DNA from: a virus | DNA: 28,463 nucleotides | Virus record (IMG/VR): IMGVR_UViG_3300046787_000322 | Span: 1-28,463 of that record | Direction: 5' to 3' (one strand) | Shown here: in pieces, positions 7,013 through 22,564 of the stretch | Position numbering within the stretch: the first letter of the stretch is position 1 | Layout: each line of letters starts with the position of its first letter | Made by a program: the position numbers and the translations under genes | The notes under the pieces: model-generated | The model's database searches: none | The model's input: only the letters and a program-made list of their open reading frames with translations | Told to the model about the DNA's origin: nothing

Positions 7013-8029
7013 CTAATCCCAATCCCCAAACGACTTCGAACCAGTCGTATAAAGCGACGCATAATCAGACTCACCCATACCCGAACCAGCCCAATACTGC
7101 GAATAACGATAATCCTCAAACTGCTCCAACATAGTCGAACGATCGCCAACATAAATGCCATCCCAATTGAAAAACTGACCATCACTCTCATAAAAATTAC
7201 ACAAGAAATCCTCAAACTCCTCAGCAACCTCATCACTAGCAGGAGAAGCATAATCATCCCAACCATCCTCAGAACCAAACCCAGCAGTCATATTGCGATA
7301 ACCCTTATAAGACGAAGCAGAAACCTTCACCTCAAACTCAGGAGAAGTCGCAGGCAAAACATCAACACCATCAATACGACCCTCACGAACAGTCAGCAAA
7401 GTCCGCTCCTCAACACTAGCCAAGAAACTAAACGACAAACCAAGATTATCCAAAGCCCTACGCAACAAAGCCTCCGTAGAAGCAAACACAAACGAACCAT
7501 CATGAAGTTGTGCAACACACAAAGGAGAATGAGACAAACGACCCACCATCAACACACCACGATTATTCTCGTCAAGCCAAGCAACACTAGCATCGCCATC
7601 CAACATATCAAAACGCTCAAAACCAAACGACTGAACAATAGCAGGAATAACAGCAGTATCAACCTCAGCCAAACTACCAACAAACTGCTTACGAACAATG
7701 TCATGATTATAAATAACACCATTATGAACAAGCGAAATAGACTTATCAGGACTTAGAACAGGGTGATTATTAGCATTCACCTTGACACTACCATGAGTAG
7801 CCAAACGAGTGTGCAAAACCGCAACACGACTACGCTTATCCATAGTCTTCAAAGACAAACGAGAACCAGCAACATCCTGCTTGAAAAAACCAGAACCCTT
7901 ACCAGACTGCCACGCAACACCAGAAGCCTGACCGCCACGAGACTCAATACCACACAACAACTCATGAGCCAACTTACGAGCATTGACCTTAGAAGTAGAA
8001 GACAAACTAAAACCAGCAATACCACACAT
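7013..8029 (-). CDS. Class II glutamine amidotransferase (GATase-II) domain protein
   Basis: A 338-residue protein starting MCGIAGFSL. After removal of Met, Cys2 is the expected N-terminal nucleophile that hydrolyses glutamine to glutamate and ammonia. Other GATase-II landmarks are SRGGQASG at 30-37, HTRLATHG with Arg75, NNHPV at 87-91 and LVHNGVIYN with Asn103-Gly104 (oxyanion site). The glutaminase domain ends near 220. The roughly 120-residue acidic, aromatic-rich C-terminus is not a recognisable asparagine synthase, PurF or GlmS acceptor domain, so ammonia must go to a partner. The start is set by Cys2. The frame runs upstream to a GTG at 8062 that would bury the Cys, and no strong ribosome binding site decides. 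Divergent from the amidoligase gene. Confidence 0.85.
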   Translation of the reverse strand: MCGIAGFSLSSTSKVNARKLAHELLCGIESRGGQASGVAWQSGKGSGFFKQDVAGSRLSLKTMDKRSRVAVLHTRLATHGSVKVNANNHPVLSPDKSISLVHNGVIYNHDIVRKQFVGSLAEVDTAVIPAIVQSFGFERFDMLDGDASVAWLDENNRGVLMVGRLSHSPLCVAQLHDGSFVFASTEALLRRALDNLGLSFSFLASVEERTLLTVREGRIDGVDVLPATSPEFEVKVSASSYKGYRNMTAGFGSEDGWDDYASPASDEVAEEFEDFLCNFYESDGQFFNWDGIYVGDRSTMLEQFEDYRYSQYWAGSGMGESDYASLYTTGSKSFGDWD

Positions 8030-8083
8030 AATATCAAAACCAATCCGAGCCATCCGGCTCACTAAAAAAACTTGAATAACTAC

Positions 8084-8113
8084 ATTTTACCCAAAAAACA
8101 TCAGTCGTGTCAA
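8084..8113 (-). promoter_or_regulatory. Leftward promoter of the amidotransferase gene
   Basis: On the minus strand TTGACA (8113-8108), an 18-base spacer, then TAAAAT (8089-8084). The predicted start of transcription is near 8077, giving a leader of about 48 bases before the MCGI start codon. A near-perfect -35 makes this one of the best promoters in the window. Confidence 0.75.
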
Positions 8114-8176
8114 GGGTTTTTGGAAACTTTTTTGGGATAACTTCCGCTTTGTGGGGGTTTTGTTATTCCACTATGT

Positions 8177-8205
8177 AGCGTAGTCGATCGTGTTGGTGGT
8201 GTCAA
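8177..8205 (-). promoter_or_regulatory. Second leftward promoter
   Basis: On the minus strand TTGACA (8205-8200), 17 bases, then TACGCT (8182-8177). The -10 is weaker than in the proximal promoter. One copy of tagtcgatcg overlaps its spacer, which could make it regulated. Confidence 0.5.
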
Positions 8206-8216
8206 GGACAATTTTC

Positions 8217-8324
8217 TGGGCAAAAATGCTTGACAAATGCCCCCTTATATGCTAGTCGATCGAAATTGTGCAAAGAAATGCTTGACAAATCTGGGCAAAA
8301 ATGGTAAAATTCCGCCCCCTTATA
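8217..8324 (+). repeat. Two 33-base mosaic direct repeats in the control region
   Basis: Copies at 8217-8249 and 8292-8324 share a 12-base left flank (tgggcaaaaatg) and an 11-base right flank (gcccccttata), but carry different 10-base centres. One centre contains TTGACA and the other contains the TAAAAT -10 box. A further shared tgcttgacaaat (8227-8238 and 8279-8290) shows the region grew by overlapping duplications. Confidence 0.65.
8282..8310 (+). promoter_or_regulatory. Rightward promoter for the amidoligase block
   Basis: TTGACA at 8282-8287, exactly 17 bases, then TAAAAT at 8305-8310. Transcription should begin near 8317 and give a leader of about 150 bases containing an inverted repeat and a strong hairpin before the first start codon. 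A second TTGACA at 8230-8235 has no good -10 at 17 bases. Confidence 0.75.
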
Positions 8325-8409
8325 GGACAATTGCGTCTATAGTGAGCATAGATTTTTCAAAGAAAAAAGAAATGATAGACGCATAGATCAAGCATAAGTA
8401 ATATCAAAT

Positions 8410-8452
8410 GGGAAACCCCTCAGGCTCCTTCGGAAGCCTTCGAGGATTTCCC
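8410..8452 (+). other. Stem-loop with CCTTCGGA apex in the leader
   Basis: GGGAAA (8410-8415) pairs with TTTCCC (8447-8452). CCTC pairs with GAGG, and AGGCT pairs with AGCCT, around an apex containing C(TTCG)G. There is no T-run after it, so it does not look like an ordinary terminator. It lies 16 bases before the GTG at 8469 and resembles the hairpins at 11358-11400 and 11935-11978. Confidence 0.6.
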
Positions 8453-8468
8453 ACCAACCAAAAAGGAA

Positions 8469-8588
8469 GTGATAAATGACAATAATGGATTAGAAAAAAC
8501 AATAGCAACATTGCTGATAATAGCAGTAGTTGTCTATTGGATAGTAGCAATACAAACAGTAATCGAAAAAACAGGAGAAGCATTCTAA
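8469..8588 (+). CDS. Possible 39-residue single-pass membrane protein
   Basis: The ORF begins at GTG (8469) and ends two bases before the amidoligase ATG. The product starts MINDNNGLEKTIATLL and has one hydrophobic helix (IIAVVVYWIVAIQ) flanked by charges, like a small phage membrane protein. The ribosome binding AAGGA lies only one base before the GTG, which is too close. The better-spaced ATG at 8476 reads only five codons, so initiation is unclear. If real it is the first product of the rightward transcript. Confidence 0.4.
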   Translation: MINDNNGLEKTIATLLIIAVVVYWIVAIQTVIEKTGEAF

Positions 8589-8589
8589 C

Positions 8590-10083
8590 ATGTCAATAGT
8601 AGGAGCAACCCGCGTAAGGGCAGCACAACTAGAAGCTGCATACCGAGGCGCAAGAAGCGACCAACAGCGAGTAAACGAAGAAGCAACACGATGGTCTTCG
8701 TTCTCACATGAGACAAGAGAATCATTCGAAACAATGCTACCAGGGTATGTAACAACATACGGTCGCAGCGTTACGCTACAAATGTTCAAAACAGACGAAC
8801 AACCAACAGAAGAATACTGGAAAAACAACAGACTTACAATGATCCACATCATTGCATATCTGAAAGCAGTAGATGTAGCCACAAGAAAAGATGGCGACTT
8901 CTGGTCACAAGTATACGGATGCTCAACAATCGACACAGCACGACTAATGGTAACCGTCAATGTAGAAGGATACATTGACAGCGAACCATACGAAGCATAC
9001 CCACTCGAAGAACACCCAGCAGTAAAACTGCTAGATGTTATGTATGGTGTCACAATCGAAAAAGATGATATCATCTGGGCGCGAGACCGATACACCCGAC
9101 AACTTGAAGTATACGCAATGAACAAACCAAAAGTAAAAGGTGTCGGAATCGAAAAACTATTCGAAAACGCACCAGTAGTATACGAATCAGTAATCAACGA
9201 ACAGTTCAAAATGCTACAAGAAAATGTTACAAACAACCTAGTAGCAAGAACATGGGGTTTCGAAATTGAAATCCCAGACGCCAAAGGCGTCCCAGCACCA
9301 GCAGGAGTCGAGAAAGGCGACGACGGTTCACTAAGATCATACGAAGGGTCAGACGACTGCGAATGTGACTGCGACGACTGCATGTATCACGACTGCGACT
9401 GTGACAACTGCTACAGCAGAAACACAGACCCAGAACACTGCGGCAACAGCGAATGCGCAACATGCGACAGTGCAGAATACCGCACAATCGGAGGCATCCA
9501 AAGAATGCAACACGCAGGCATGTTCAAACTATGTCAAGACCTCGCAGACAAAGGTGCTGAACTAAACGACAGTGCAGGCACACACATCCACGTGTATGCA
9601 CAAGACCTAACAACCAACCAAGTTGGACAAGTCATGGCAACATACAGATGGCTCGACACAATCATCCGACCAATTGCAGGACGTAAAAACGTCAACTACG
9701 CAATGGAAATCCCAGTAAGCTACATCGCATCAGCGTTGAGCAGAAAGAACGCAACACTAGCAAAAGACAAGCCACGCGAAATCAACTGCATGCACTTGTT
9801 CAACGGGCGCGGAACAATCGAGTTCCGACAGATGGACTGCAACGCAAACGCAAAACGCATCACAGCATGGGCTTGGCTAGTTCGTGGACTAGTAACAGCA
9901 GCAAAACGAGGAGCAACACTCAGCAACTACAAAGAGTGCAAAGACCTCAACGACGTTATCGGCGTATTAGCAAAGTTCAATGTATACACAGATAACGAAC
10001 ACCCAGAACAAGTAGTCTACGGTTCAAAGAACGACGCAGACCTAGTAGCACCAATGCTAGTTCAGCACAAGTCAACAAACTAA
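8590..10083 (+). CDS. Amidoligase-family protein (COOH-NH2 ligase) with Cys-rich insert
   Basis: 497 residues. The core shows the amidoligase_2 signature (glutamine-synthetase/GCS-like fold): WGFEIEIP at 222-229, GTHIHV at 330-335 and RGTIEFRQMD at 407-416. These supply the metal/ATP-binding acids, His and Arg used to join a carboxylate to an amine with ATP. Two additions are unusual. One is an N-terminal extension of about 215 residues with no recognised family. The other is an insert at 257-292 with ten Cys in CxCxC and CxxC spacing between the first strand and the His motif, probably a metal-binding knuckle. AGGAGA lies before the ATG. Divergent from a GATase-II gene, a plausible ammonia source. 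The substrate is unknown. Confidence 0.8.
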   Translation: MSIVGATRVRAAQLEAAYRGARSDQQRVNEEATRWSSFSHETRESFETMLPGYVTTYGRSVTLQMFKTDEQPTEEYWKNNRLTMIHIIAYLKAVDVATRKDGDFWSQVYGCSTIDTARLMVTVNVEGYIDSEPYEAYPLEEHPAVKLLDVMYGVTIEKDDIIWARDRYTRQLEVYAMNKPKVKGVGIEKLFENAPVVYESVINEQFKMLQENVTNNLVARTWGFEIEIPDAKGVPAPAGVEKGDDGSLRSYEGSDDCECDCDDCMYHDCDCDNCYSRNTDPEHCGNSECATCDSAEYRTIGGIQRMQHAGMFKLCQDLADKGAELNDSAGTHIHVYAQDLTTNQVGQVMATYRWLDTIIRPIAGRKNVNYAMEIPVSYIASALSRKNATLAKDKPREINCMHLFNGRGTIEFRQMDCNANAKRITAWAWLVRGLVTAAKRGATLSNYKECKDLNDVIGVLAKFNVYTDNEHPEQVVYGSKNDADLVAPMLVQHKSTN

Positions 10084-20198: not shown

Positions 20199-20801
20199 AT
20201 GACTACTCTTCCATCAAATGTTGGCTACGGCACTGTTACTGGCCGTTTCCTTTTGGCATACGCTGACTCGAACGATGTTGACTCTTACCCAGATGGCGTT
20301 CCTTGTAAGGGAAGCATTTTGCTCACCCCTTCTGCTGCTTATGTAAAAAATGAGACAGCTTCTCCTGCGCCTGTAACTATTCTTCCAGCAACTATCGAAT
20401 GCTTGCTGGACTCTGAAGGTTACGTTCTTGGCTCGGACAATACTCGTGGCGTGCGCCTTGTTGCTACCGATGATGGAGATAACAATCCTGTTGATTGGAC
20501 TTGGCGTGTAGACTTCCGCCTAACTGATCAGAGCGACACCCCAACACGCGGTATCCCAACTTTCTATTTTGAGCTACCGCAGGGCACGACTGTAGATCTA
20601 ACAAGTGTCGCTCCTGTGCCAGATGCAAGTGGCGTATATTATCTAAACGGCCCTAAGGGCGATACTGGTGCTACAGGTTCTACTGGAGCAACAGGCCCAG
20701 GGGTTCCAGATGGTGGAACTACTGGACAAATACTTACTAAAACTAACGGAACAGACTACAATACTAGTTGGTCTAACACTATCGATGGAGGCACAGCCTA
20801 A
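20199..20801 (+). CDS. Fibre-associated protein with short collagen stub
   Basis: 200 residues. The first roughly 140 form a beta-sandwich-like domain (GTVTGRFLLAYADSND, PDGVPCKGSILLTPS, WTWRVDFRLTD). A collagen-like [17 protein letters not shown] stub follows, then TTGQILTKTNGTDYNTSW and the shared IDGGTA end. The TGQxLTKTNGTDYNTxW segment is the familiar fibre motif. Probably a fibre subunit or a receptor-contact protein. Confidence 0.7.
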   Translation: MTTLPSNVGYGTVTGRFLLAYADSNDVDSYPDGVPCKGSILLTPSAAYVKNETASPAPVTILPATIECLLDSEGYVLGSDNTRGVRLVATDDGDNNPVDWTWRVDFRLTDQSDTPTRGIPTFYFELPQGTTVDLTSVAPVPDASGVYYLNGPKGDTGATGSTGATGPGVPDGGTTGQILTKTNGTDYNTSWSNTIDGGTA

Positions 20802-22564
20802 TGCCAGTTCAAACCGTAATTAAAACTCGTAGAGATACTGCAGCTAACTGGCTCTCTACTAATCCTGTGCTTGCAGCCGGTGAGACTGGCCTTGAGTCAG
20901 ATACTGGGCTAGTCAAGTTTGGCAATGGAACTTCTGCTTGGGACGCATTGCAGTATTCTAGTGCAGCTCGTGTCGTAGAAGTTGTCAAGAACTCTACTGG
21001 CGGCACAGTTAGCAAGGGGAGTGTAGTTTACATTTCTGGAGCTAATGGAGCTAACCCTTTGATTTCTTTGGCGGATGCTGATAGCGAATCAACATCAAGC
21101 AAAACATTGGGTTTTGTTGTTGCGGATATTGCTGATGGTGCTCGCGGAATGGTGCTACAAAGTGGATTGCTTACTGGTGTAAATACTGGTTCTGCTAATG
21201 CTGGGGACTCTGTTTGGCTTTCTGGAACTGCAGGTGGATTTGTATTTGGTGCACCACCAGCAAAACCAGCTCACAGTGTTTATCTTGGTATTGTTACTCG
21301 GGTTCAATCACAGAATGGTGAGATCCTTGTTAAGGTTCAGAATGGTTACGAAATTAATGAGCTTCACGATGTGAATGCTGGCTCACCAAGCGACAATAAC
21401 TTGCTTGCTTGGGATTCGCTTACCTCAATGTGGACTAACCAGACAGCAGCCCAGGCTGGGCTTGCAACTGCAGCAAACCCAACCTTCACCGGCACGCTAA
21501 ACGCAGCAGCAGTAACTATCACCGGCAACTTGACTGTTGGTGGAACAACAACTACTGTAAATGCCACTGATCTTGTTGTAGAAGACCCACTGATTTACAT
21601 TGGTGAGGGTAACTCTGCAAACCTTGTAGACCTTGGCATTGTTTCTTCTTTCAACGATGGAACGTATCAGCACTCTGGTCTTGTGCGTGACGCTTCTGAT
21701 TCAAAGTGGAAACTCTTTAAGGGTGTAACTGACGAACCTACAACTACTGTGAACTTTGCTCAAGGCTCTCTTGACGCTCTTGCAGTTGGTGCATTTGAAG
21801 CTTCATCTGCAATCATTGGCAACGTTTCAAATACTGAGCTGCAGTATCTTGATGGTGTAACCTCTGCGATTCAGACACAGCTAAACGCTAAGGCTCCACT
21901 TGCCAACCCAACCTTTACTGGAACCGTTGATCTTACTGGTGCAACTGTAACTGGAATAACTGGCCTACCAAGCCAGACTGGTAACACTGGAAAATACCTA
22001 ACCACAAACGGTTCTGCAGCTTCATGGGCTACTATTTCTGGCGATGCAAGCACTTCTGGCACATTGGCTCAGTTTGCTTCAACAAGCTCTTCTCAGCTTG
22101 CTGGCGTTATTTCTGACGAGACTGGTTCTGGTGCACTTGTGTTCGGCACATCTGCTGCACTGAACTATCCAACTCTAAAGTCTCCAAAAGAAATCACAAC
22201 CGTATCTGCAACTTCTGCAACCGGAACCATAAACTACGATGTGCTCACTCAGGCTGATTTGTATTACACATCTAACGCATCTGCTAACTTCACCCTAAAC
22301 TTCAGGGGATCATCTGGTGCTACCCTAGACAGCTCAATGGCTACTGGCGAGACAGCAACACTTGTGTTCAGAAACACAAATGGAACAACTGCTTACTACC
22401 CTAACGCTTTCACAATTGACGGCACTTCAGTTACACCAAAGTGGCTTGGCGGAACAGCACCAAGTTCTGGCAATGCTTCAGCAATTGATGTTTACTCGTT
22501 TGTGATTACAAAGACTGGATCAGCAACATATACAGTATTAGCTTCAGTAGCTAAGTTCGCTTAG
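20801..22564 (+). CDS. Fibre/receptor-binding protein with Mtd-N-like start
   Basis: 587 residues. The first 55 (KTRRDTAANWLSTNPVLAAGETGLESDTGLVKFGNG) are homologous to the Mtd-N-like domain of the gene at 19912. A beta-rich shaft follows with repeated fibre signatures: ANPTFTGTL and ANPTFTGTV, then VTITGNLTVGGTTTTVNATDLVVEDPLIYIG, NTELQYLDGVTSAIQTQLNAKAP and a C-terminal beta region. It would bind the host surface. ATG overlaps the previous stop. Confidence 0.8.
   Translation: MPVQTVIKTRRDTAANWLSTNPVLAAGETGLESDTGLVKFGNGTSAWDALQYSSAARVVEVVKNSTGGTVSKGSVVYISGANGANPLISLADADSESTSSKTLGFVVADIADGARGMVLQSGLLTGVNTGSANAGDSVWLSGTAGGFVFGAPPAKPAHSVYLGIVTRVQSQNGEILVKVQNGYEINELHDVNAGSPSDNNLLAWDSLTSMWTNQTAAQAGLATAANPTFTGTLNAAAVTITGNLTVGGTTTTVNATDLVVEDPLIYIGEGNSANLVDLGIVSSFNDGTYQHSGLVRDASDSKWKLFKGVTDEPTTTVNFAQGSLDALAVGAFEASSAIIGNVSNTELQYLDGVTSAIQTQLNAKAPLANPTFTGTVDLTGATVTGITGLPSQTGNTGKYLTTNGSAASWATISGDASTSGTLAQFASTSSSQLAGVISDETGSGALVFGTSAALNYPTLKSPKEITTVSATSATGTINYDVLTQADLYYTSNASANFTLNFRGSSGATLDSSMATGETATLVFRNTNGTTAYYPNAFTIDGTSVTPKWLGGTAPSSGNASAIDVYSFVITKTGSATYTVLASVAKFA

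Follow-up and report, generated by a model that had tools for sequence, protein, structure and literature searches.

In a virus fragment of 28.5 kb we find a stand-alone class II glutamine amidotransferase (GATase) and an amidoligase encoded divergently from one region of about 560 bp, and among related phages the two genes are, as judged from gene neighbourhoods, obligatorily linked. GATase-amidoligase pairs are already known in phages; the present one is a variant, belonging to a lineage whose amidoligase carries a cysteine- and histidine-rich insert. The DNA analysed, called hereafter the window, is virus record IMGVR_UViG_3300046787_000322 from position 1 to 28,463. The right side of the window holds portal, terminase large subunit, maturation protease, capsid and tail genes, and the left side a helicase and SSB. 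The similarity to Arthrobacter phages is no more than a hint of an actinobacterial host.

Table 1. Features of the GATase-amidoligase locus (positions in the window)
Feature	Position	Strand	Basis
Class II (Ntn) GATase, 338 aa, stand-alone	7013..8029	-	Pfam, PHROG, conserved residues, fold
Small C-terminal GATase domain, residues 264-315, no known family	7085..7240	-	Predicted, pLDDT ~80-90 over most
YRNMTAG motif, GATase residues 244-250, after the Ntn core	7280..7300	-	Alignment
Promoter-like TTGACA-18-TAAAAT, GATase unit	8084..8113	-	Consensus match only
Two 35-nt direct repeats, 8215-8249 and 8290-8324, TCTGGGCAAAAATG...CCCCCTTATA, operator-like	8215..8324	.	Repeat search
Promoter-like TTGACA-17-TAAAAT, TG before the second hexamer	8282..8310	+	Consensus match only
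Leader hairpin ahead of the small ORF, UUCG in its loop	8409..8453	+	Fold; relatives compared
Predicted single-membrane-span protein, 39 aa, GTG start, MINDNNGLEKTIATLLIIAVVVYWIVAIQTVIEKTGEAF	8469..8588	+	ORF, relatives
Amidoligase_2 (glutamine-synthetase-like COOH-NH2 ligase), 497 aa	8590..10083	+	Pfam, motifs, model
Cys/His-rich amidoligase insert, residues 257-289	9358..9456	+	Alignment of relatives

The glutamine amidotransferase

The GATase opens the leftward transcription unit. Its longest ORF (7013-8062, minus strand) opens with a GTG, and an extension to this GTG at 8062 is possible; the most likely start is nevertheless the ATG at 8029 (MCGIAGF), because the catalytic Cys must come directly after the initiator Met and because the ORFs of several, if not many, relatives open exactly at MC. 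The protein matches Pfam GATase_6 (E 2.5e-20, 73.3 bits for a cut-off of 27) and PHROG 14519 ‘glutamine amidotransferase’ (2.4e-35), and has the N-terminal Cys, the Gln-binding Arg/Asp and the oxyanion Asn-Gly of class II enzymes. Residues C2, R31, H73, R75, N87, H102-N103-G104 and D124 are invariant among 48 relatives, which extends to this whole set the intact Cys2, Arg75 and Asn103-Gly104 announced by the original prediction, made from the window alone.

The loop reads HTRLATHG and lines up with the HTRWATHG of GlmS (HTRxATHG type), and the best fold matches of the model (pLDDT 87) are the glutaminases of GlmS and PurF. GlmS ranks at 3e-14 versus 1.5e-10 for EgtC, the latter being absent from the sequence matches. 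The GlmS-type loop and this fold ranking favour free glutamine as the probable substrate, over an EgtC-like hydrolysis of gamma-glutamyl compounds.

The C-terminal isomerase, synthetase or transferase domain of GlmS, asparagine synthetase or PurF is missing from the 338 residues, and the NCBIfam scores stay below cut-off (glmS 62 bits versus 418, asn_synth 51 versus 267, purF 31 versus 350). Residues 250-338 match no family, in line with the earlier statement that no known acceptor domain is attached, though a small ordered domain is predicted within them. The region beyond the core also holds a conserved YRxMT motif.

The amidoligase and its insert

The amidoligase matches Pfam Amidoligase_2 (PF12224; E 1.8e-10, 41.5 bits for a cut-off of 22) and has the ExE, GxHxH and xIEFR motifs of the family in the forms already read from the window, WGFEIE (E225/E227), GTHIHV (H332) and RGTIEFR (E411/R413). 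Among 45 relatives E225, E227, D245, G330, H332, E411 and R413 are invariant. A non-catalytic pocket had been raised as a possible objection; the acidic, His and Arg residues are kept in these relatives and in the AlphaFold model (pLDDT 83), so that at the residue level the objection finds no footing. The top PDB folds are YbdK and glutamine synthetase, weak matches with a probability up to 0.99 but E of 3e-3 and TM of 0.2-0.3, and the best viral fold matches are phage amidoligases, with E down to 3.5e-34. Sequence searches gave no relative in the PDB and no close relative among named phages. In a scan of GTDB contigs only canonical amidoligases, mainly of Bacteroidales, were found, and none of the cysteine-rich type.

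The insert, of about 33 residues with the pattern CxCxCx2Cx2HxCxCx2Cx8HCx4C, lies between two active-site strands, after the DGS motif and before the catalytic strand with E296. Its ligand-type residues are C257, C259, C261, C264, H267, C269, C271, C274, H283, C284 and C289. All nine Cys and both His are kept, with no exception, in 22 close relatives; in a wider set of 40, counted on the alignment, no sequence departs from C259, C261, C264, C274 and C284, and 38 have C257. The insert occurs in 40/40 relatives of the lineage, whereas canonical amidoligases are without it: in those of phages, the Arthrobacter ones included, DGS runs directly into the E strand. Most likely the insert is a structural metal (Zn) site shaping the binding of a substrate or partner; as the AlphaFold confidence over the loop is low, the metal is proposed solely from the pattern of residues.

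The GATases follow the same division. Every one of the 40 GATases that accompany cysteine-rich amidoligases has a tail motif [YFW]RxxT[AS]G, and none of 13 insert-less amidoligases is paired with a GATase bearing it. This correlation may reflect one ancestral split.

Linkage of the two genes

A search of IMG/VR with the GATase alone returned 61 loci, 54 of them testable, and an amidoligase lies within 1.3 kb in 54/54, a count of loci from related phages and thus not of independent events. In the other seven the contig ends within about 1.1 kb of the GATase on the amidoligase side; in one of these, L016, a fragment clustering with amidoligases is still visible. The pair takes three arrangements: divergent, as in the window, amidoligase-GATase in tandem and GATase-amidoligase in tandem. 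In the reverse search, with the amidoligase alone, a GATase lies next to the amidoligase at all cysteine-rich loci but two, both at contig ends; among the more distant canonical amidoligases about two thirds have such a neighbour. In annotated phages of Arthrobacter, Pseudomonas and Proteus, too, the gene for an amidoligase or carboxylate-amine ligase adjoins that of a GATase or lies close to it. The GATase and amidoligase trees covary beyond what terminase or helicase account for (partial r about 0.35, 0/500 permutations each), which we take as supportive only, since the helicase-GATase comparison gives similar values. The co-occurrence in related phages that the original prediction had called for is thus essentially complete, and the pairing appears real.

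Control region and small membrane protein

The control region first proposed as common to the two genes, with promoters in both directions, is borne out to the extent that the two promoter-like sites of Table 1, on opposite strands and recognised as consensus matches only, are the only 11/12 matches in the 3.5 kb scanned. The 35-nt repeats overlap the rightward site. Other divergent relatives have at the same place 11-bp tandem repeats and ~18-bp GCGCGAATTCCCAAAT repeats, such as would be seen at an operator or origin. Each of the two genes is first in its divergent unit, the units meeting at this central region, so that both are probably early genes.

One nucleotide separates the end of the small membrane ORF from the amidoligase ATG. 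About 12 relatives in the divergent long-form clade have homologous sequence, often of the form MINDN-TM-Cx5C, and membrane ORFs are enriched upstream of amidoligases (15/40 versus 20/513 control genes). Substitutions fall mostly at third codon positions in 5/6 pairs, the exception being the pair formed by the window and L011; codon position 2 is the most conserved, and dN is lower than dS in each of the five pairs that allow dS to be computed. Judging from these substitutions the ORF is under purifying selection. Its GTG/ATG overlaps an extended Shine-Dalgarno-like stretch; the start codon is ambiguous in about five relatives, some having no standard in-frame start. A general association of the ORF with amidoligases is not supported, since it is largely limited to the divergent long-form clade, to which the window belongs. 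A riboswitch reading of the leader hairpin was also rejected: there is no Rfam match and no sequence common to the relatives, several of which form, at the corresponding position, hairpins whose sequences are unrelated.

Comparison with known systems

Amidoligase-GATase modules are known in phiEco32, LUZ24-like, Marvin and OM43 phages (PMC3890496, PMC10580990, PMC11945000). The literature link between amidoligases and class II GATases stated in the original prediction was therefore correct, and systems of this kind were known before. The usual proposal for these modules is cell-wall modification or superinfection exclusion (PMC10580990, PMC11945000), and the superinfection idea recurs, for phage amidoligases, in PMC11318856. 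The OM43 phage and phiEco32/Marvin pair the same two families, with a superinfection or cell-wall role proposed; we compared them by description, and the insert and the membrane ORF are not described in the accessible text (PMC10580990).

The LUZ24-like Pseudomonas phages (UFV-P2, PaP3, tf, phiCHU) have a ‘putative peptidoglycan modification module’ with adjacent GATase_6 and Amidoligase_2 genes in the early region (PMC3890496, PMC11945000), to which are added a RimK-like ATP-grasp, a gamma-glutamyl cyclotransferase (GGACT) and a COOH-NH2 ligase. Their GATase is the longer one (UFV-P2, 486 aa; here 338 aa), the amidoligase sampled is without the cysteine-rich insert, and no small membrane ORF was noted. 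Among our records no RimK-like gene was found in 38 related ones, the window itself being a 28-kb fragment; GGACT was found in no record of the cysteine-rich lineage, and the seven records that have it all carry canonical amidoligases. The search for the COOH-NH2 ligase (PF14395) gave no match in the records, the control genomes being likewise without match.

The Arthrobacter phages Shrooms, Laroye and Ottawa, whose GATases are the closest annotated ones (36-39% identity), also have a minimal adjacent pair, but in tandem, with an amidoligase devoid of the Cys insert and a GATase tail without YRxxT[AS]G. In outline the pair also resembles MurT/GatD of Staphylococcus aureus, a glutaminase with an ATP-dependent amidating enzyme; MurT/GatD combines a class I GATase with a Mur-ligase fold and is not homologous to the phage pair. 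None of the PADLOC anti-phage defence profiles matches the GATase or the amidoligase.

Three features set the lineage apart, none of them part of the original prediction: the insert, the tail motif of the GATase and the small membrane protein. They appear new, and the open-licence papers searched hold no report of them or of the reduced gene set.

Possible functions

We propose a phage glutamine-dependent amide-forming system by which a carboxylate of the envelope would be amidated early in infection, a proposal to which we give about an even chance. The scheme we infer, from enzyme activities, ammonia transfer and timing to metal, substrate and function, is the following. The GATase would hydrolyse glutamine at its N-terminal Cys and release ammonia; the amidoligase, of putative glutamine-synthetase-like fold, would activate a carboxylate with ATP and join it to this ammonia, or possibly to another amine. 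The most likely target is a peptidoglycan stem peptide or other envelope carboxylate, since the gene immediately ahead of the amidoligase encodes a very small membrane protein; the conjecture of the literature points the same way. Alteration of the envelope might then shield the infected cell or keep other phages out.

The same enzymes could serve a gamma-glutamylation cycle, as do EgtA/EgtC for ergothioneine and PuuA/PuuD in putrescine use: the ligase would add glutamate to an amine, and the GATase-fold enzyme would hydrolyse gamma-glutamyl amides without supplying ammonia. YbdK, the best solved fold for the ligase, is of the gamma-glutamylcysteine-ligase type, EgtC is among the fold matches of the GATase and related phage modules include gamma-glutamyl cyclotransferases. 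However, the GATase has kept the full GlmS-type loop and is far closer in fold to GlmS than to EgtC, which its sequence matches do not include, and the cyclotransferase family is missing from the records of the cysteine-rich lineage; such a cycle thus seems unlikely. Amidoligases are also said to have been predicted as peptide ligases by Iyer in 2009 (cited in PMC10580990), and a conserved small peptide gene lies directly upstream, so that one may imagine a peptide-type bond formed on some protein, or else on the membrane peptide itself, and removed or edited by the GATase. The C-terminal ends of this peptide are not conserved (EAF, YC, TCN, YCKL), and the peptide, unlike the pair, seems confined to a single clade, which makes this tagging distinctly improbable.

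Adjacency would be uninformative on a joint function if both genes were merely the first beside a central divergent control or origin-like region. In many relatives repeat arrays do lie between them, and the phage core genes are syntenic too. Yet the pair stays adjacent in tandem, in both orders, and in unrelated phages of Arthrobacter, Pseudomonas and Proteus, and the tree covariation persists after control for terminase or helicase; we judge a pure position effect insufficient and very unlikely. As for nucleotide or DNA hypermodification by amide transfer, some phage 7-deazaguanine pathways contain GATase domains; a thymidylate-synthase-family gene was not found in 20 relatives and no base-modification gene was recognised among the window ORFs scanned, and we hold this reading to be highly improbable.

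Within the amide-forming proposal, a more detailed three-part system is conceivable, though doubtful: a GATase with a docking tail, an amidoligase with a multi-cysteine metal module as a cap over its active site, and a microprotein in the membrane that would bring the reaction to the envelope, all first expressed in infection from the shared divergent control region.

Implications

Amidoligase-GATase pairs occur in many phages, and their roles are so far proposals in the papers found. The present lineage, in which neither RimK ATP-grasp nor GGACT was recognised, seems to carry a minimal form of the module, two enzymes and perhaps one membrane peptide, a set convenient for reconstitution, and its conserved metal-site-like insert offers a clear mutational handle. 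This lineage could thus make the target of phage amidoligase-GATase enzymes testable.

Between the divergent genes for the class II glutamine amidotransferase (GATase) and the amidoligase, the related IMG/VR loci L031, L032 and L036, which belong to the short-form clade, carry repeat arrays made of 11-bp tandem repeats, TCAGGAAACTC, and also of copies of GCGCGAATTCCCAAAT, about 18 bp long. These arrays are operator- or origin-like.

Features upstream of the amidoligase in the window and between the divergent genes in the short-form clade
Feature	Coordinates	Strand	Remark
Stable leader hairpin, 5' of the small ORF	window 8409-8453	+	about -23 kcal/mol for the folded 76-nt stretch
Membrane ORF, 39 aa, unannotated	window 8469-8588	+	putative start codon within an extended Shine-Dalgarno-like stretch
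Repeat array	L031:9469-9658		
Repeat array	L032:9305-9649		
Repeat array	L036:9530-9779		

Several relatives have a hairpin at the position matching that of the window leader, with an unrelated sequence. At the start of the small ORF, the ATG with the best spacing belongs to another frame, that of a 5-codon ORF (MTIMD*); this oddity recurs in several relatives.

Elsewhere, the window encodes a small protein matching DUF1599, "nucleotide modification associated domain 1" (757-1032, -; 6.3e-7), and a tail-fibre-like protein with the N-terminal domain of Mtd, the major tropism determinant (20801-22564, +).

In L061-L070, GATases partnered with canonical amidoligases (those devoid of the Cys/His-rich insert) bear a CxxC motif in their C-terminal tail, whereas those of the Cys-rich lineage display YRxxT[AS]G in the corresponding place; the cysteines of the canonical pairs thus appear on the opposite partner.
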